This document shows positions 18,893 to 31,821 of a DNA stretch of 64,000 bases, one piece after another. Made by a program: the position numbers and the translations under genes. The stretch comes from Dehalococcoidia bacterium (GTDB lineage Bacteria; Chloroflexota; Dehalococcoidia; Bin125): positions 310,001-374,000 of the forward strand of contig JAJEJC010000005.1 in the NCBI GenBank assembly GCA_022828105.1, read 5' to 3'. The stretch's first letter is position 1. Each line of letters opens with the position of its first letter. The notes beneath the pieces were generated by a model. It did not search any database. It saw only the letters and a program-made list of their open reading frames with translations, and was not told the origin of the DNA.

Positions 18893-19396
18893 CTACAGCG
18901 GCGTCTCCCGCACCCTGGGCCGGCCATCGACCTCGGTCATATCGAGTCGCTTCCGCTCAGCCGCCCCATCGCCGACGATCAGATCGATCTCCGTCGGTTT
19001 CACGGTATCCGCAGCGTCGCCGTCGTCGATTCGCCAGGCGCGCACCGAGGGCGGCTCGTCGGCCAGTGAGACCAGCACCCAGTAGGGCCACTCGGCGGCG
19101 CCCTTGTGCAGCTTCGCGATTCGCAGGTCGGTGGGCGACGGCCGTGCTTCCGAGGCCACGTGCGAGTGATAGATCACCAGCCAGTCGCCTTCGTCGATCG
19201 CCCGGTCCATGTGCATCACCTGCTGCGGCGGGATGTTGAACCGCCAGGGCGAAGCCTCGTCGTTGGTCGCCCGCCAGAGCGTCAGCGCGCCGTCCGGCGC
19301 GCGGCCGATGACGCCGCAACACTCGTTCGGCAGATCATCGCGCGCATGCGCGACCATCTCGTCAACCAGCGCTTGCGGCAACTCAAGCACACTCAT
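18893..19396 (-). CDS. JAMM/MPN+ metallopeptidase (Mec-like, M67 family)
   Basis: 167-aa zinc peptidase. Complete JAMM set: E25 in PNECCG, H77-S-H79 in IYHSHV, S87 and D90 in RPSPTD. In Mycobacterium the relative Mec+ hydrolyses the CysO-cysteine adduct to release cysteine, and in quinolobactin synthesis QbsD trims a sulfur carrier tail. Here the same strand carries a sulfur carrier ending GG-AA, its E1, and CysM/CysK, which supports either role. The start overlaps the MT-A70 gene stop by 4 nt. About 40 extra C-terminal residues (after 125) follow the core. Confidence 0.88.
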   Translation of the reverse strand: MSVLELPQALVDEMVAHARDDLPNECCGVIGRAPDGALTLWRATNDEASPWRFNIPPQQVMHMDRAIDEGDWLVIYHSHVASEARPSPTDLRIAKLHKGAAEWPYWVLVSLADEPPSVRAWRIDDGDAADTVKPTEIDLIVGDGAAERKRLDMTEVDGRPRVRETPL

Positions 19397-20016
19397 GATC
19401 CCGCAGCCTCCCGCTGTTCATGCCAGAACGTGCGCTCCGTCTGCTGATGTGCAATCTCGGCGCCCCATGTGTCCCAGCCGTGGATCTCGCTGTCTCGGGA
19501 GAACAGCTCGATCTTGCGCTGGCGGGGGAACATCTCCTCGATCCTACGGCGTACCTCGACTGGTTTGCGTGAGTGGTCGGTTCGCCGTTCGGATACGAGT
19601 TGACGCGCATTGCGCGCGCCGCGAGGGGTTGGAATCCGGCCGCTCTTGAAGACCAGGCAGAGTTCGCACTGCGACATCGTGTAGAAGCCTGGATTGACAC
19701 GTTGTTTGTCCCAGACAAACGCGACGGTTGCCCAGTCGAAGCCCCAGGCCTTGCCCAACTCGATGGCCTGGTCGAGATGCGGAGAGGTCGCCCAGAGGAA
19801 CAAGAGCGAATCCTCCGCCGCAATCGAGGCGATGTCGAGCCCTTTGAGATCCGCGAGTCGGACGGTGGAGTAATGGCGGATCGCACCGCCCGAATCACCG
19901 CTGCCGGGTCCGGCATGTTGCAGCTGACCCTTGTAGTCCCAGGGAGGGTCGGCGTAGATGATCGCATAGCGGTCGTTGGCTTGCGGAGCGGGCAAGCGAG
20001 GAAACTCGACCGGCAT
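19393..20016 (-). CDS. MT-A70 family N6-adenine methyltransferase
   Basis: 207-aa single-domain protein: SAM-dependent adenine methylase with catalytic D23-P-P-W26 (IIYADPPWDYKG) and the WATSPHLDQAIELGKAWGF and SRKPVEVRRRIEEMFP motifs of the group. Usually phage or mobile-element DNA methylases in bacteria; here it sits between two operon genes with no nuclease beside it, so it looks like an orphan, stably kept methylase. ATG 20016 starts 2 nt after the preceding gene ends. The substrate (DNA or RNA) cannot be read from sequence. Confidence 0.9.
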   Translation of the reverse strand: MPVEFPRLPAPQANDRYAIIYADPPWDYKGQLQHAGPGSGDSGGAIRHYSTVRLADLKGLDIASIAAEDSLLFLWATSPHLDQAIELGKAWGFDWATVAFVWDKQRVNPGFYTMSQCELCLVFKSGRIPTPRGARNARQLVSERRTDHSRKPVEVRRRIEEMFPRQRKIELFSRDSEIHGWDTWGAEIAHQQTERTFWHEQREAAGS

Positions 20017-20018
20017 GT

Positions 20019-20396
20019 CTAGCCCTCTGGAACCCACTCGCGCAACTCGCCGTCGTCGTGGCAGGCGCCCGGTTGGAGCGTCATCTGCAAATACGGACGG
20101 CTGGCCGCCGGCGAGACGAGGTGGTCCAACCAGTGGTCGCGTTCCGATTCGGGAATGAGTGAGGCGATGTCGCCGAAGCGCAGGTGGATGACGGTGTCGT
20201 CTTCGACGATGCCGAAGTCGATCGCGGCCTTGCCCGGCTGCAGCAATCGGCCGACGGTGTTGGACCGCAGGATCTTCGCGCCGGCGTCGATGTATCGCGT
20301 CAACACCGTCGCGGAGAAATGCACCGGCAGGGCCGAGGCGTCGCCCGAACTTACCGCTCGGGCGACGGTGCGTTTCCAGACCGCGTCGGTCGGCAC
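20019..20396 (-). CDS. 125-aa conserved-looking protein of unknown function
   Basis: Starts GTG 20396 and ends 2 nt before the MT-A70 start. Hydrophilic, mixed alpha/beta: VHFSATVLTRYIDAG, a repeated hydrophobic pattern and a C-terminal EWVP. No membrane segment, signal peptide or recognisable motif. Codon use matches neighbours. It lies in the run with MT-A70 and JAMM genes and could be the first gene of that sub-operon because the repeat element lies just upstream. Confidence 0.55.
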   Translation of the reverse strand: MPTDAVWKRTVARAVSSGDASALPVHFSATVLTRYIDAGAKILRSNTVGRLLQPGKAAIDFGIVEDDTVIHLRFGDIASLIPESERDHWLDHLVSPAASRPYLQMTLQPGACHDDGELREWVPEG

Positions 20397-20401
20397 GGGA
20401 G

Positions 20402-20490
20402 CCCCCCTCTGCCTTCGGCATCTCCCCCCGCAGAGCGGGGGGAGAAGGAGTAGGTGTCCGGCATCTTCCCCCGCAGAGCGGGGGGAGAGA
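20402..20490. repeat. Palindromic GC-rich repeat, one full and one partial unit
   Basis: Unit 1 (about 20402-20446) begins with six C then TCTGCCTTCGGCATCT and ends in a CCCCCC-GC-xxx-GC-GGGGGG hairpin; unit 2 (about 20458-20490) repeats the GGCATCT + hairpin half. The same element recurs at 22647, 31773 and, reversed, 38059. It contains two nested hairpins (GCCTTCGGC and the C6/G6 arm). Confidence 0.85.
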
Positions 20491-20499
20491 GGAGTGTGG

Positions 20500-21345
20500 C
20501 TAGGCCGTCGGATTGTCGATCGGCACGCCGACGACGGAGCCGTACTCGGTCCAGGAGCCGTCGTAGTTGGACGTGTTGTCGATACCCAGCAGGTAGCGCA
20601 GCGCGAACCAACTGTGCGACGAGCGCTCGCCGATACGGCAGTAGGCGATCACCGGTTGGTCGCCCGTGATGCCCTGTGCCTGGTAAATGTTGTTGAGCTC
20701 GTCGGCGGACTTGAACGTGCCGTCCTCGGCGACGGCGGTCGCCCAGGGAATATTGGATGCGCCGGGCACGTGGCCCTTGCGCTGGGCGGTCTCGGGCAAG
20801 CCCGGCGGGGCCATGATCACGCCGTTGAACTCGTCGGGCGAACGTACATCGACCAACTGACCGCCCGCTTCGACGTGGGCCAGCACGTCGGGCAGCTTGG
20901 CCCGCAGGGTCTCGTCGCGCTCGGCTACGGCGATGCTGCCTGAACCGGCGGCCGGCGCGTCGGTCGTGGTCGCGCGACCCTCGGCCTCCCACTTGACGCG
21001 GCCGCCGTCCATGAGCGCGGTGTTGGTCACGCCATAGAGCTCGAGCATCCACAGGGCGTAGGCGGCGAACCAGTTGTTGTTGTCGCCGAAGAGGACGATC
21101 TGCGAGTCGTCGTTCGCGCCGGCGCTGCGCAGCAGATCGGTGACGACCTCGCGCGAAGCGACGTCGCGCGAGACCTGGTCCTGGAGCTGGGATGTCCAAT
21201 TCCAGGCGATGGCGCCGGGCGGGTGGCCGTCATCGTAGGCCGAGGTGTCGACGTCGACCTCGATCAGGACGACGTTGGGGTTGTCGAGATTGGCCGCGAC
21301 CCAGTCGGTTGAGACAAGCTTCTCAGGGTGTGCGTAGTCGGCCAT
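20500..21345 (-). CDS. Two-domain rhodanese (thiosulfate/3-mercaptopyruvate sulfurtransferase)
   Basis: 281-aa tandem rhodanese. The N-terminal domain (about 10-130) lacks the active-site Cys, and the C-terminal domain has the active loop CRIGERS near residue 236, which fits thiosulfate sulfurtransferase (CRxGxR/S), with DVRSPDEFNG near residue 166. It opens the sulfur block and could donate persulfide sulfur to the E1/carrier pair encoded 1.4 kb upstream in the operon. The gene is followed by the palindromic repeat. Confidence 0.92.
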   Translation of the reverse strand: MADYAHPEKLVSTDWVAANLDNPNVVLIEVDVDTSAYDDGHPPGAIAWNWTSQLQDQVSRDVASREVVTDLLRSAGANDDSQIVLFGDNNNWFAAYALWMLELYGVTNTALMDGGRVKWEAEGRATTTDAPAAGSGSIAVAERDETLRAKLPDVLAHVEAGGQLVDVRSPDEFNGVIMAPPGLPETAQRKGHVPGASNIPWATAVAEDGTFKSADELNNIYQAQGITGDQPVIAYCRIGERSSHSWFALRYLLGIDNTSNYDGSWTEYGSVVGVPIDNPTA

Positions 21346-21375: not shown

Positions 21376-22335
21376 TCACCACCAGATTTTGCCTTCGATT
21401 TCTTCGTCGCCGGCGATGTCCTCGTACTCGCGATTCCAGAGGCCGGTTGAGAGGTACTTCCAGCCGCCGTCGGCGAGCAGGACGACGATGTGGCCCGAAT
21501 CGAGCCGCTCGGCGGCTCGCTGCGCGGCGCGGATCGCGGCGCCGCAGGAGATGCCGGCGAAGATGCCCTCTTCCTCGAGCAGCCGCTTGACGACCGCGAA
21601 CGAGGTCCGGGAATCGACCATGATCCGGCCGTCCAGCAGCGATTCGTCGAGCACAGGCGGAATGTAGCCCTCTTCGAGCGAGCGCAAGCCCTGGACCAGG
21701 TCGCCGGGATGCGGCGCGGCAGCGACGATCTTGATGTTGGCGTCACGCTCTTTGAGGAACCGTCCCACGCCGGTCAGCGTGCCGCCCGTGCCGAGTCCGG
21801 CGACGAAGTGCGTGATCTCGGGGCAGTCACGGTAGATCTCCGGGCCTGTCGTCTCGTAGTGCGCGCCGGGATTGGCCGCGTTCTCGTACTGCATCGGCAT
21901 GAAGACGGAGGGATCGGCCTCGTACATCTCCTTGGCCATCCGGACCGCGCCGTTGGAACCGGTCTCGCCCGGCGAGAGCACGACTTCTGCGCCGAAGAAG
22001 GAGAGCAGGTCGCGCCGTTCGACCGATACGGACTCGGGCATCACGCAGCGAACCGGGTGGCCGGTCAGCCTGCCGATCAGCGCGATTGCGAGTCCGGTGT
22101 TGCCCGAGGTCGGTTCGAGGATCGTCTGGCCGGGCTTGAGCGAGCCGTCGGCGTGGGCCGCGTCGATCATCGCCCTGGCGATCCGGTCCTTTACCGAGCC
22201 GGTCGGATTCTGGCCCTCGAGCTTGACCCAGATTGCGACATCCGGGTTGGGCGACATGCGTTGCAAACGCACCAGCGGGGTGTCGCCGATTGTGTCCAGC
22301 AGGGACTGATAGCGGGCTGGGGCGGCCGTGACCAT
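21376..22335 (-). CDS. cysM: PLP-dependent cysteine synthase, CysM-like
   Basis: 319-aa fold-type II PLP enzyme. Substrate and cofactor motifs: IGDTPLVRLQRM, NPTGSVKDRIARAM with the PLP lysine near residue 46, EPTSGNTGLAIAL, and FVAGLGTGGTLTGVGR. The carrier gene stop overlaps this start by one base (TGATG), exactly the cysO-cysM style coupling of Mycobacterium, so it probably uses the thiocarboxylated carrier as sulfur source (inference). The second CysK paralogue (23833) lies 1.5 kb away. No serine acetyltransferase (cysE) is present. Confidence 0.93.
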   Translation of the reverse strand: MVTAAPARYQSLLDTIGDTPLVRLQRMSPNPDVAIWVKLEGQNPTGSVKDRIARAMIDAAHADGSLKPGQTILEPTSGNTGLAIALIGRLTGHPVRCVMPESVSVERRDLLSFFGAEVVLSPGETGSNGAVRMAKEMYEADPSVFMPMQYENAANPGAHYETTGPEIYRDCPEITHFVAGLGTGGTLTGVGRFLKERDANIKIVAAAPHPGDLVQGLRSLEEGYIPPVLDESLLDGRIMVDSRTSFAVVKRLLEEEGIFAGISCGAAIRAAQRAAERLDSGHIVVLLADGGWKYLSTGLWNREYEDIAGDEEIEGKIWW

Positions 22336-22613
22336 CAGGCAGCACCCCCAGCAAGTGCCGGCAGAATCGCCAGCACGTCGCCGTCCGAGAGCGAGGTTTC
22401 CATGCCGTCGAGGAAGCGGATGTCCTCGTCGTTCAGGTAGATGTTGACGAAGCGGCGCAGTTCGCCGTCTTCCATCAGTTGGTTGCCGATGCCGGGGTAG
22501 GAGGACTCCAGCGTGGCCAGCAGTTCGCCGATGTTGGCGGATTCGAGCTGCACCTTCTTCTCGCCGTCGGTGAACTTCTGCAGCATGGAGGGGACTCGGA
22601 CTTCGACAGCCAT
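22335..22613 (-). CDS. ThiS/MoaD-family sulfur carrier with GG-AA tail (CysO-like)
   Basis: 92-aa ubiquitin-fold sulfur carrier: VRVPSMLQKFTDG start, VNIYLNDEDIRFLDG middle, and ALAGG-AA end, so the di-glycine (89-90) that becomes the thiocarboxylate is followed by two extra residues. Activation by E1 requires a free GG terminus, so the AA must be trimmed. ATG 22613 follows GAGAGGA 8 nt upstream; an upstream in-frame start at 22670 is less likely. Neighbours (CysM, JAMM, E1) give a complete CysO-type set. Confidence 0.85.
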   Translation of the reverse strand: MAVEVRVPSMLQKFTDGEKKVQLESANIGELLATLESSYPGIGNQLMEDGELRRFVNIYLNDEDIRFLDGMETSLSDGDVLAILPALAGGAA

Positions 22614-22646
22614 GTGTGGTTTCCTCTCGCTCGTGCGCAGGGGGAA

Positions 22647-22696
22647 GCCCCCTCTGTCCCTCCGGGACATCTCCCCCCGCTTTGCGGGGAGAGAGA
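22647..22696. repeat. Palindromic repeat, degenerate copy
   Basis: Same element as at 20402, with the middle changed (CTCTGTCCCTCCGGGACATCT) and a shortened hairpin arm GCGGGGAGAGA. It lies between the E1 stop and the carrier start, within 2 nt of the TAA of the E1 gene, so it could be read as part of the carrier transcript leader. Confidence 0.8.
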
Positions 22697-22697
22697 G

Positions 22698-23786
22698 TTA
22701 ATTCTCGTGGAACGGTGAGCCGCAGAACTCCTCGTAATCGATCAGCTCGGTGACGGTCGGAGCGTCACCGCACAGGGGGCACTGCGGGTCGCGACGGATC
22801 TTGACGGTGCGGAAGTCCATCGCCAGCGCGTCGTAGAGCAAGAGCCGGTTCTTGAGCGGCTCGCCCTGCTCGAGCAGCACCTTGATCGCCTCGGTCGCCT
22901 GGATTGCGCCAACCGTGCCGGGCAGAACGCCGAGCACACCGGCCTCGGAGCATGACGGCACCATGCCCGGCGGCGGCGGTGAAGGGTAGAGGCAGCGGTA
23001 GCAGCCTTCGCCCGGGAAGAAGGTCGTGACCTGTCCCTCGAACAGGAAGATCGAACCGTCGACCAGGATTTTCTCGGCCAGGAAGGCGGCGTCGTTGACG
23101 AGGTAGCGGGTGGCGAAGTTGTCGGCCCCGTTGATGATCACGTCGTACTCGGGGATGATCTCCATCGCGTTGTCGGAGGTCAACGGCGACGTGTGCGTCA
23201 CCACGTTGATGTTCGGATTCATGTCCAGAATCCGGTCCTTGGCCGAGTCGACCTTGAGCCGCCCGATATCGGAGGTGCCGTGGATGATCTGGCGCTGCAG
23301 GTTGGAGCGATCAACGACGTCGAAGTCGGCGACGCCAATCGTGCCGATCCCCGCGGCGGCCAGGTAGACCAGAACCGGGGAACCCAACCCGCCCGCGCCC
23401 ACGGCGAGGATTTTGCCGTCGATCAGCTTGCGCTGACCGAGCGGACCGACCTGGTCCATGATCAGATGGCGCGAGTAGCGCTCGACCATTTCGGGAGTCA
23501 TCGCGGCGCCGGCACCGCCGGCGAGCGCCGGAATCACGGCCATCTCGTCACCGTCCGCCACCGGCGTCTCCGCGCCCTGCAGCGACGTGATCTCGTGGTT
23601 GTTGACGTAGACGTTGACGTGCTCCAGCAGTTCCTGCTCGCCGTCGAAGACCATTTCCCCGAATCCGGGGAAGCGCTGGTCCAGGTCACGCAGCACGCCG
23701 TTGACGTCGATCCCCTCGGCGTCAACGAACGTGCGATTCCCGGTGATCTTCCGGAACGGCGTCGGAATGTAGACCTTCACGCTCAT
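22698..23786 (-). CDS. E1-like adenylating enzyme fused to an N-terminal sulfur-carrier domain (MoaD-MoeB/ThiF)
   Basis: 362 aa. Residues 1-91 form a second ThiS/MoaD-type carrier, ending ALAGG-AGAAM (GG at 90-91), and residues 97-362 form a MoeB/ThiF/E1 domain with ATP site GAGGLGS (130-136), DVVDRSNLQRQ (157-167), zinc pairs C262-x-x-C265 and C336-x-x-C339, and Cys279 as candidate catalytic residue. The carrier moiety is similar to the free 92-aa carrier (VNVYVNN, PALAGGA). It lacks the rhodanese C-terminal domain of some MoeBR proteins; a separate rhodanese exists at 20500. The start is ATG 23786 with AGAGGACGA upstream. Confidence 0.9.
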   Translation of the reverse strand: MSVKVYIPTPFRKITGNRTFVDAEGIDVNGVLRDLDQRFPGFGEMVFDGEQELLEHVNVYVNNHEITSLQGAETPVADGDEMAVIPALAGGAGAAMTPEMVERYSRHLIMDQVGPLGQRKLIDGKILAVGAGGLGSPVLVYLAAAGIGTIGVADFDVVDRSNLQRQIIHGTSDIGRLKVDSAKDRILDMNPNINVVTHTSPLTSDNAMEIIPEYDVIINGADNFATRYLVNDAAFLAEKILVDGSIFLFEGQVTTFFPGEGCYRCLYPSPPPPGMVPSCSEAGVLGVLPGTVGAIQATEAIKVLLEQGEPLKNRLLLYDALAMDFRTVKIRRDPQCPLCGDAPTVTELIDYEEFCGSPFHEN

Positions 23787-23832: not shown

Positions 23833-24786
23833 TTAGCTCTCCGAGAGCGGCATGGACAGATACCGCTCGCCGGTGTCACAGATCGTCGTCACGATCCGGC
23901 AGCCGGGGCCGAGTCGTTTGGCGACCTCAATTGATGCGTACACGTTTGCGCCCGAGGAGATGCCGCACAAGATCCCTTCCTCACGGGTCAAGCGGAGCAT
24001 CATCTGCTCCGCGTCCCGATCCGAGACGCCGATCACCTCGTCGTAGATCTCCCGGTTGAGCACACCCGGCACGAACGACGCGCCGATGCCCTGGATCGCG
24101 TGGACCGAGAATCGCCCGCCCTGCAGCACCGGCGAGCGTTGCGGCTCGACGGCCGTGATCCACAGGTTAGATGTGCGCTCGCGCAGTACTTCGCCGACGC
24201 CCGTGATTGTCCCGCCGGTTCCGACGCCGGTGACGAACGCGTGCAATCGTGCACCGTCGGCCATCTCACGGCCTTCCAGACCCGCCCAGATCTCGAGCGC
24301 CGTCGTGCGGCGGTGGACTTCGGGATTGGAGAGGTTCTGAAACTGCTGGGGCATGAAGTAGCCGTCTTCAGCCGCCAATTCCTCGGCAGCAAAGACTGCG
24401 CCGGTCATGCCTTCAATCGCAGGGGTCAACACCACTTCCGCGCCGAACCGTTCCAGCAGGCGCCGCCGCTCGTGCGACATGTCTTCGGGCATCGTCAGGA
24501 TCAGGCGGTAGCCCTTGACCGCCGCCACCAGTGCCAGTCCCACTCCGGTGTTGCCGGACGTCGGCTCGACGATCACATCCCCGCTGCGCAGCGCGCCGCT
24601 GCACTCGGCATCCTCGATCATCGAGCGGGCGATCCGATCCTTGACCGACCCGCCGGGGTTGAGCGACTCCAGCTTGACGACGACTTCCGCGGCGTCGACC
24701 GGCACGACGCGGCGCAGCGTGACCAACGGCGTGCTGCCGATCAGGTCCAGCACGGAATCTGCCAGCGGCGGTCGAGTCAGGCTCAA
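23833..24786 (-). CDS. cysK: Cysteine synthase, CysK-like
   Basis: 317-aa PLP enzyme, second of two O-acyl-serine sulfhydrylases in the cluster. Marks: IGSTPLVTLRRVV, SLNPGGSVKDRIARSM (PLP Lys near residue 45), EPTSGNTGVGLALV near residue 74, and FVTGVGTGGTITGVGE. It starts with TTG 24786, preceded by a weak GAGAAG. Length and motifs are normal. It is the gene nearest the Rrf2 regulator, and could use sulfide from CysH-linked sulfate reduction while the other (CysM-like) works with the carrier. Confidence 0.92.
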   Translation of the reverse strand: MSLTRPPLADSVLDLIGSTPLVTLRRVVPVDAAEVVVKLESLNPGGSVKDRIARSMIEDAECSGALRSGDVIVEPTSGNTGVGLALVAAVKGYRLILTMPEDMSHERRRLLERFGAEVVLTPAIEGMTGAVFAAEELAAEDGYFMPQQFQNLSNPEVHRRTTALEIWAGLEGREMADGARLHAFVTGVGTGGTITGVGEVLRERTSNLWITAVEPQRSPVLQGGRFSVHAIQGIGASFVPGVLNREIYDEVIGVSDRDAEQMMLRLTREEGILCGISSGANVYASIEVAKRLGPGCRIVTTICDTGERYLSMPLSES

Positions 24787-24813: not shown

Positions 24814-25272
24814 TCAGATCTGGTAGCGCCCGCCGGTAGGAGAACCGAGCAGAGCGGATTCAGCGGCGAGGTCGGCGATCGTGCGATCGGCCAGCACCTC
24901 AAGAATGGCGGCGCGCACGTCGTCCCAGAGGCGGACTTGCGCGGCCGCCCCGGTACAGCGCTCCGCGGCCCGGCCGTTTTGCGCACCGCGCTCCAGGCAG
25001 GCCGCCAGCGTGAGCGGACCCTCGAGCGCCTCAACGACGCGATCCAGCCGAATCTCGTCCGGCGCTTGCGCCAGTTGGTGTCCGCCCTGCGATCCGCGGG
25101 CCGAGGAGATGAACCCGGCCGCGCGCAGCCGTCCCAGCACCTGACCGGCCAGCGATCCCGGTATGCCCTGGCGCTCGGCGATCTCTGCCGAGGGCACCGG
25201 CGCACCGTCGTTGTGCTGGGCAAGGTCGACCAGGGCGCGAATGCCATAGTCACTCGTGGAAGACAGCTTCAT
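24814..25272 (-). CDS. Rrf2 family transcriptional regulator
   Basis: 152-aa winged-helix regulator. It begins MKLSSTSDYGIRALVDLAQ, the standard Rrf2 start, and has the recognition region QGIPGSLAGQVLGRLRAAGFISSARGSQGG. Two cysteines remain in the cluster loop (AACLERG and AERCTGA, 14 residues apart) rather than the three of IscR, so it may bind a [2Fe-2S] cluster or act cluster-free. It is divergent from cysH and reads in the same direction as the cysteine genes, the position of CymR-like or IscR-like sulfur regulators. ATG 25272 is preceded by an in-frame ATG at 25275. Confidence 0.9.
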   Translation of the reverse strand: MKLSSTSDYGIRALVDLAQHNDGAPVPSAEIAERQGIPGSLAGQVLGRLRAAGFISSARGSQGGHQLAQAPDEIRLDRVVEALEGPLTLAACLERGAQNGRAAERCTGAAAQVRLWDDVRAAILEVLADRTIADLAAESALLGSPTGGRYQI

Positions 25273-25327
25273 CATCGGGAGCACGTCCACGCCGTACCGC
25301 CGCCGAGGCGATGCGGATAATCTTGAC

Positions 25328-25345
25328 TGAAATAGTAACATTTCA
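25328..25345. promoter_or_regulatory. AT-rich palindrome, candidate Rrf2 operator between rrf2 and cysH
   Basis: TGAAAT-AGTAAC-ATTTCA (6-bp arms, 6-bp spacer) lies in the 120-nt divergent gap, in the only AT-rich stretch of the region. TTGACT overlaps the left side (25324-25329), which could be a -35 for cysH. The position and shape suit a dimeric regulator; the exact Rrf2 motif for this phylum is unknown to me. Confidence 0.45.
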
Positions 25346-25392
25346 CTTCGGCCGGCCCACCTGCTTGGGCCCCGATCACGCGGAGACCTGGT

Positions 25393-26157
25393 ATGACAAC
25401 GACCGGCACTGCAATCGACGCGACACAGATCGAGGCTGACGCGCGCAGACTGGCCGCGTCGCATCCCGCCGAGATCATCGCCGAGGCGCTCTCGCGATTC
25501 GACTCGCTCACTGTTTCATTCAGCGGCGCGGAGGATGTCGTCCTGATCGACCTCGCGGTTCGGGAGGCGGAAAAGCAAGGCCGCAGCTTCAGCGTATTCA
25601 CGCTCGACACCGGCCGCCTGCATCCGGAGACGCTCGAGTTCATCCAACAGGTCAGCGACCACTACGGAGTCACAATCGAGGCATTCGCGCCGCAGGCCGC
25701 GGCCGTGGAGCGACTCGTCCGTGCCAAGGGACTGTTCAGTTTCCGCAGCGACGGGCACCAGGAGTGCTGCGGCATCCGCAAGGTTGAGCCGCTGGGCCGC
25801 GCGCTCGCTGACGTAGACGCCTACATCACCGGCCAGCGCAAGGACCAGTCGCCGGGCACGCGCGCCGAGATCCCGGTCGTCCAGCTCGATCCGGGATTTG
25901 GTCGACAGGACAATCCGCTGGTCAAGTTCAACCCGCTGGCCAACTGGACGTCAGCCCAGGTCTGGCAGCAGATCATGGCCTACGGCGTGCCGTACAACCC
26001 GCTGCATGACCGGGGCTTCAAGTCGATCGGATGCGCGCCTTGCACTCGCGCCACGCATCCGGGAGAACACGAACGGGCCGGTCGCTGGTGGTGGGAAGAG
26101 GCGACCCAGAAGGAGTGCGGCCTGCACGCCATCAATCTGGCTGAGCCGGCTGAGTGA
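25393..26157 (+). CDS. cysH: Adenosine 5'-phosphosulfate reductase (CysH, [4Fe-4S] type)
   Basis: 254-aa reductase turning activated sulfate (APS/PAPS) into sulfite. It carries the cluster cysteines C125-C126 (ECCGIRK) and C214-x-x-C217 (GCAPCTR), which mark the APS-using, 4Fe-4S form, plus the catalytic C242 in KECGLH, and SFSGAEDVV as the PP-loop. GGAG 8 nt before ATG 25393. It is divergent from the Rrf2 regulator and so is likely under its control. The C-terminus (26 nt) overlaps the convergent thioredoxin-like gene. No sulfate adenylyltransferase or sulfite reductase is in this window. Confidence 0.95.
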   Translation: MTTTGTAIDATQIEADARRLAASHPAEIIAEALSRFDSLTVSFSGAEDVVLIDLAVREAEKQGRSFSVFTLDTGRLHPETLEFIQQVSDHYGVTIEAFAPQAAAVERLVRAKGLFSFRSDGHQECCGIRKVEPLGRALADVDAYITGQRKDQSPGTRAEIPVVQLDPGFGRQDNPLVKFNPLANWTSAQVWQQIMAYGVPYNPLHDRGFKSIGCAPCTRATHPGEHERAGRWWWEEATQKECGLHAINLAEPAE

Positions 26158-31772: not shown

Positions 31773-31821
31773 GCCCCCCTCTGCCTTCGGCATCTCCCCC
31801 CGCTGCGCGGGGGGAGAGGGG
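31773..31821. repeat. Palindromic GC-rich repeat between epoxide hydrolase genes
   Basis: Copy nearly identical to unit 1 at 20402 (CCCCCCTCTGCCTTCGGCA, then TCTCCCCCCGC-TGC-GCGGGGGGAGA). It lies in a 71-nt gap. Confidence 0.85.

Follow-up and report, generated by a model that had tools for sequence, protein, structure and literature searches.

A CysO-type sulfur carrier encoded with a tail after Gly-Gly in a Dehalococcoidia cysteine operon, and its probable trimming by the operon's JAMM peptidase

The sulfur carrier encoded directly ahead of cysM in this Dehalococcoidia bacterium appears to be made as a CysO-type precursor, with a tail that is the translated spacer of the cysM ribosome-binding site. 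This tail is probably trimmed after the second glycine by the JAMM peptidase of the same operon, which would also release cysteine; we put the probability of this reading at roughly three in four. JAMM trimming is the best explanation alongside cysteine release, not in place of it. The analysis covers a window of 64,000 nucleotides (the whole stretch of DNA studied), in which the cluster runs on one strand in the order Rrf2 regulator, CysK, carrier-MoeB fusion, carrier, CysM, two-domain rhodanese, a 125-residue ORF, MT-A70 methylase and JAMM (Table 1).

Table 1. Features of the cysteine operon and its surroundings, in window positions.
Feature	Position	Strand	Remarks
JAMM peptidase (Prok-JAB), candidate trimming and cysteine-releasing enzyme	18893..19396	-	PF14464
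Two-domain rhodanese / mercaptopyruvate sulfurtransferase-like protein, candidate sulfur donor	20500..21345	-	PF00581, PRK11493
CysM-type cysteine synthase	21376..22335	-	start codon overlaps carrier stop codon; best PDB match M. tuberculosis CysM (3dki, 3dwg)
CysO-type sulfur carrier	22335..22613	-	92 aa, ending ALAGG-AA; PF02597; CysO-like PDB matches
Carrier stop codon	22335-22337	-	overlaps cysM ATG as TGATG
Two-residue tail Ala-Ala	22338..22343	-	spacer from Shine-Dalgarno to cysM start
Di-glycine codons GGGGGT, doubling as Shine-Dalgarno of cysM	22344..22349	-	9 nt before cysM ATG
Carrier domain fused N-terminally to MoeB-type E1	22698..23786	-	ThiS and ThiF domains; internal GG at residues 90-91
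Gly-Gly codons of the fused carrier, predicted second cleavage site	23514..23519	-	GG conservation
CysK-type cysteine synthase, no Arg220 equivalent	23833..24786	-	TIGR01139
Rrf2-family regulator (CymR/IscR-like)	24814..25464	-	start probably near 25272
APS/PAPS reductase CysH	25393..26157	+	divergent, upstream of cluster

The carrier tail, probably a decoded ribosome-binding spacer

Translated, the carrier gene reads MAVEV...ILPALAGGAA*, and the statement of the first-pass annotation that a sulfur carrier ends here in GG-AA is borne out by this translation, by the match to the ThiS family (PF02597, E 4e-15) and by real alanine codons followed by a stop. The family match stops at residue 90, the second glycine, and the precursor, as the gene reads, does not end with its Gly-Gly. 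The top PDB matches are 4n6e_B, a ThiS/MoaD family protein (E 3e-23), and M. tuberculosis CysO (3dwg_C, E 3e-22; also 3dwm), so that the carrier falls in the ThiS/ubiquitin-like family with CysO closest among solved proteins. Carriers 91-97% identical to it come from MAGs named Chloroflexi, Chloroflexota or Dehalococcoidia, which makes the host a member of Chloroflexota. Residues follow the Gly-Gly in all 14 same-genus orthologues, which are not independent samples, despite 6 of the 11 ThiS-family ORFs of the own genome ending exactly at GG, and the tail is therefore more than chance.

What is the tail then? The best reading is that the spacer between the cysM ribosome-binding site and its start codon is translated, the tail arising as a side effect of the overlapping genes. 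The Gly-Gly codons are GGAGGC or GGGGGT/C in 14/14 same-genus genomes where the orthologue was found, and in each of them a GGAGG or GGGGG stands exactly 9 nt ahead of the cysM ATG, with a tail of 1, 2, 9 or 16 residues. The spacer encodes AA, SR, AR, SA, AS, SS, DG, AH or HR in different members of the genus; one genome has a single-alanine tail with the stop shifted (GGAGGC GCA TAG CG ATG) and the spacing still at 9 nt, and the four genomes with a tail of 9 or 16 residues carry a second GGAGG 9 nt before the ATG. The 3' end of the 16S rRNA of the own genome carries CACCTCCTT, with the anti-Shine-Dalgarno CCTCC, and among the glycine codons of the window's genes GGA accounts for 13% and GGG for 12%. 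As a control, the Gly-Gly codons of the fused carrier are Shine-Dalgarno-like in only 2 of those 14 genomes. Outside the genus the codons are mostly GGCGGC, the overlap is gone and the tail is either altered (DR, S, ATVA, KI, long) or absent (L067, L081, L121). The Gly-Gly overlap may also couple the translation of the two genes or control CysM synthesis.

Since the overlapping ribosome-binding site explains the tail, it need not signal regulated activation. That it is nevertheless a switch, with an inactive untrimmed pool activated on demand by JAMM, we consider very unlikely: every orthologue in the genus has a tail, and cleavage of M. tuberculosis MoaX is only partial (PMC4326299), but the 9-nt spacing accounts fully for a tail conserved in neither sequence nor length, and outside the genus tails change or vanish. 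The same lack of conservation led us to reject the tail as a conserved recognition peptide or processing signal. Slimmer still is the chance that the carrier works untrimmed with a harmless tail, small as its two residues are, or that the gene end has been misread. The reading frame, stop and overlap of the carrier are conserved in relatives, and because the glycine that an E1 adenylates has to be the free C-terminus, the carrier must first lose its tail; in M. tuberculosis the thiocarboxylate forms on the terminal glycine (PMC3227635), and the uncut form of MoaX is inactive (PMC4326299).

A G-rich dispersed intergenic repeat (CCCCGCAAAGCGGGGGGAGA-like), possibly a REP-like element, occurs at about 20400-20500 and 22640-22700, the latter copy lying directly upstream of the carrier start codon, with a similar one near 31780.

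The JAMM peptidase and the distribution of extended carriers

The JAMM gene had been described at first as neighbouring the carrier; it does lie on the same strand and in the same operon, but 2.9 kb downstream, with four genes in between (cysM, the rhodanese/MST gene, the 125-residue ORF and the MT-A70 methylase gene), and it is syntenic in relatives. The MT-A70-type adenine methyltransferase occupies about 19393-20022 (-), between the rhodanese and JAMM genes, and the ORF at 20019-20396 (-), between the rhodanese and methylase genes, has no Pfam or NCBIfam match. The metal-binding and catalytic motif E...HxHx7Sx2D is intact in the JAMM protein (E25, H77, H79, S87, D90), and these residues together with S78 are invariant in 18 sequences. 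Its predicted structure (pLDDT 91) adopts the JAMM fold, with P. furiosus JAMM1-SAMP2 (5lda) as the best structural match (Z 17.3, rmsd 1.8 over 125 residues). It is the only non-RadC Prok-JAB match in the own genome; the other three PF14464 matches are RadC proteins.

Among 46 named relatives the presence of a JAB protein gave no contrast, as 43 have one, and we used phylum surveys instead, comparing the carriers of genomes with and without a Prok-JAB (PF14464) peptidase in Chloroflexota and in the phylum of a Desulfuromonadales MAG (L107). Carriers running past GG numbered 0/11 in 7 Chloroflexota genomes without Prok-JAB vs 45/70 in 19 genomes with it, and 0/22 in 13 vs 19/69 in 20 genomes of the L107 phylum, where the extensions cluster in a single subtype (PAIAGG). 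Pooled, this amounts to 0/33 vs 64/139, a correlative co-occurrence in which the genomes without Prok-JAB (carrier-holding genomes only) have fewer carriers, partly of other subtypes, and in which shared ancestry is only partly handled. Fisher P at the level of carriers is 5e-5 for Chloroflexota and 0.005 for the L107 phylum. Counted by genome, an extended carrier is found in 0/7 vs 18/19 (Chloroflexota) and 0/13 vs 14/20 (L107 phylum), with P about 1e-5 to 5e-5 per phylum; label permutation among genomes gives 4e-5 and 5e-5, respectively. The extensions comprise short tails, MoaD-MoaE fusions, ThiS-ThiG fusions and carrier-MoeB. The survey covers these two phyla; ThiS-ThiG fusions are also reported in the 2006 operon analysis for many proteobacteria (PMC1779556). 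Six sequences of the L107 phylum (L247-L249, L251, L252, L259) are CysO/HcyS-like PAIAGG carriers followed by a conserved extension of ~80 residues (VTLTFPPERIQEPVIYNI-like), perhaps a NIL-type domain.

Could another enzyme remove the tail? We think it unlikely that the tail simply results from the cysM ribosome-binding site and is taken off by a different peptidase or a second JAB-like protein, the operon JAMM acting, like Mec+, only on the carrier-cysteine adduct. The 9-nt spacing accounts for the tail without any JAMM, and the tail-less orthologues L067 and L081 retain a JAMM nearby, as does L121. A JAB-like domain (HSHPGHGWQGMSKPD) is also encoded elsewhere in the genome, fused to a ThiF/E1 domain in a protein of 526 aa (L022:841-2421 (+), on contig C5, some 94 kb after the window ends), and this rival peptidase could trim the carrier instead; it has no PF14464 match, and PADLOC E1-E2 models match its ThiF part only. 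Against such a division of labour stand the 0/33 extended carriers in genomes without Prok-JAB and the fact that Mec+ itself, in removing the residue that follows GG in the adduct, breaks a bond of the same chemical kind. Moreover, relatives of JAMM trim such precursors: CsRpn11 takes nine residues off the ubiquitin precursor CsUb exactly after Gly-Gly and CsJAMM cleaves SAMP precursors (PMC6043591), while DRJAMM cleaves MoaD-MoaE and is required for its activation (PMC8832034). Trimming by the operon JAMM remains our preferred reading, and the intact motif, the JAMM1-like fold, the restriction of extensions to genomes with Prok-JAB in both surveys and this precedent make it a good candidate.

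Probable cysteine release and a second carrier fused to MoeB

The CysM next to the carrier scores 319 bits against M. tuberculosis CysM and 254 against the next distinct solved protein, a lead of about 64 bits. The counterpart of M. tuberculosis Arg220, a residue that binds the phosphate of O-phosphoserine, is Arg218 in the alignment, the predicted O-phosphoserine-binding arginine here; the neighbouring CysK has no equivalent. The C-terminus is EGKIWW, in which EGKIW matches EGQLW of M. tuberculosis CysM and which is likewise absent from CysK. Judged by these residues, the adjoining CysM belongs to the O-phosphoserine/CysO type. The M. tuberculosis enzyme couples O-phosphoserine with the thiocarboxylate form of CysO, and the resulting CysO-cysteine is hydrolysed by Mec+ (PMC3227635); operons with a ThiS/MoaD-like protein, an E1, a JAB and a cysteine synthase were described as class 4c/4d by Iyer, Burroughs and Aravind in 2006, with Chloroflexus aurantiacus listed (PMC1779556). 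With a CysM of this type, that pathway and an operon class known since 2006, a cysteine-releasing JAMM is to be expected. Because, in addition, tail-less orthologues keep their JAMM, the enzyme is likely to have a second role, probably the ancestral one, in releasing cysteine, and trimming would come in addition to it. The original suggestion that JAMM activates the carrier rather than, or as well as, releasing cysteine is thus supported in its second form, while 'rather than' is not supported, given the type of CysM and the tail-less orthologues.

The E1 of the operon carries its own carrier domain, which ends PALAGG and is followed by a linker of 4 residues and then by MTPEM. This fusion and its internal GG are kept in 16/16 relatives, down to 61% identity, and across Chloroflexota the linker measures 2-15 residues (L054-L069, L095, L096, L102, L106, L120). 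The region around the GG (residues 87-109) is predicted to be disordered, with pLDDT below 50, in a low-confidence AlphaFold model (pTM 0.65) that we used for this point alone. A separate internal start of the MoeB part with its own Shine-Dalgarno was considered and rejected, the Gly-Gly codons being Shine-Dalgarno-like in so few genomes; since such a signal is generally not found there, we prefer a true fusion. A conserved Gly-Gly within a chain makes sense if the chain is cut there, for which the operon JAMM would be the obvious candidate, and the fusion may be a polyprotein. The explanation of the tail by the overlapping cysM ribosome-binding site and this second, E1-fused carrier, which would need the same cut, were both missed in the first-pass annotation.

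This MoeB-type enzyme is the only E1 found in the own genome besides the JAB-ThiF protein, and it has ThiS and ThiF domains only; lacking the C-terminal rhodanese domain of the MoeZ kind, it is not filed as MoeZ. The own genome (2.7 Mb) holds eleven ThiS-family ORFs (L009-L016), among them a MoaD-MoaE fusion (L011) and a carrier with the tail ALAPTRPDSPMKWN (L014), and a single MoeB-type E1.

Proposed maturation and relation to known systems

We propose that the carrier is made as a precursor: its Gly-Gly codons provide the ribosome-binding site for cysM, and translation of the necessary spacer adds an unconserved tail. The operon JAMM would cut after the second glycine and remove the tail, as the genome-wide co-occurrence and the literature precedent suggest. 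The MoeB-type E1, with the separate rhodanese as the likely sulfur donor, would then make the carrier thiocarboxylate, which by analogy with the CysO/CysM/Mec+ pathway of M. tuberculosis CysM would join to aminoacrylate formed from O-phosphoserine, and JAMM would finally release cysteine from the carrier. The carrier-MoeB fusion and the MoaD-MoaE fusion encoded elsewhere in the genome are probably cut by this JAMM in the same way.

QbsE/QbsD of Pseudomonas and HcyS/HcyD of Wolinella also combine a carrier bearing one or two residues after GG with a JAMM gene in the operon, and serve thioquinolobactin and homocysteine synthesis, not cysteine. We likened the present carrier to QbsE and HcyS in its working and filed it apart, since the neighbourhood here (cysM, cysK, rhodanese, APS reductase) is a cysteine synthesis cluster and not one for thioquinolobactin or homocysteine. 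Similar in layout is the M. tuberculosis CysO/CysM/Mec+/MoeZ pathway (PMC3227635; 3dwg), with a carrier directly upstream of a CysM bearing the Arg220 equivalent, a JAMM in the operon and a MoeB-type E1. In contrast to that pathway, residues follow GG here, the rhodanese is a separate gene and the E1 has an N-terminal carrier domain of its own in place of a rhodanese domain. The gene content is that of the class 4c/4d operons, although the E1 of class 4c is fused to a rhodanese domain, and their description is not known to connect the JAB with a C-terminal tail (PMC1779556). CsRpn11/CsUb and CsJAMM/CsSAMP share the residues after Gly-Gly, which JAMM there removes exactly after the second glycine (PMC6043591), but these are archaeal modifiers, while here the carrier is bacterial, serves cysteine synthesis and is predicted to be cleaved. 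Deinococcus DRJAMM/MoaD-MoaE (PMC8832034) and M. tuberculosis MoaX (PMC4326299) likewise have an extended or fused carrier that needs a cut after GG to function, as we predict here; the partner there is MoaE, whereas here we have a short tail and a carrier-MoeB fusion.

JAMM trimming of carriers, and JAMM-matured carriers as a kind, are already known. What makes the present case a variant that merits testing are the Gly-Gly codons overlapping the Shine-Dalgarno, the carrier-E1 fusion and the rule linking extension to JAB. A wider idea, for which we see about as much reason to believe as to doubt, is that one JAMM acts as a general maturation protease for the short-tailed CysO, the carrier-MoeB polyprotein and MoaD-MoaE, and that its presence frees carrier genes from having to stop at Gly-Gly, which lets the GG codons double as a ribosome-binding site for the gene that follows. 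The testable rule is that residues beyond Gly-Gly are allowed in sulfur carriers only in the presence of a Prok-JAB peptidase; in any genome it would give a list of predicted substrates for JAMM proteins of unknown role. More generally, a protein motif that overlaps a ribosome-binding site can create a protein dependent on a processing enzyme.
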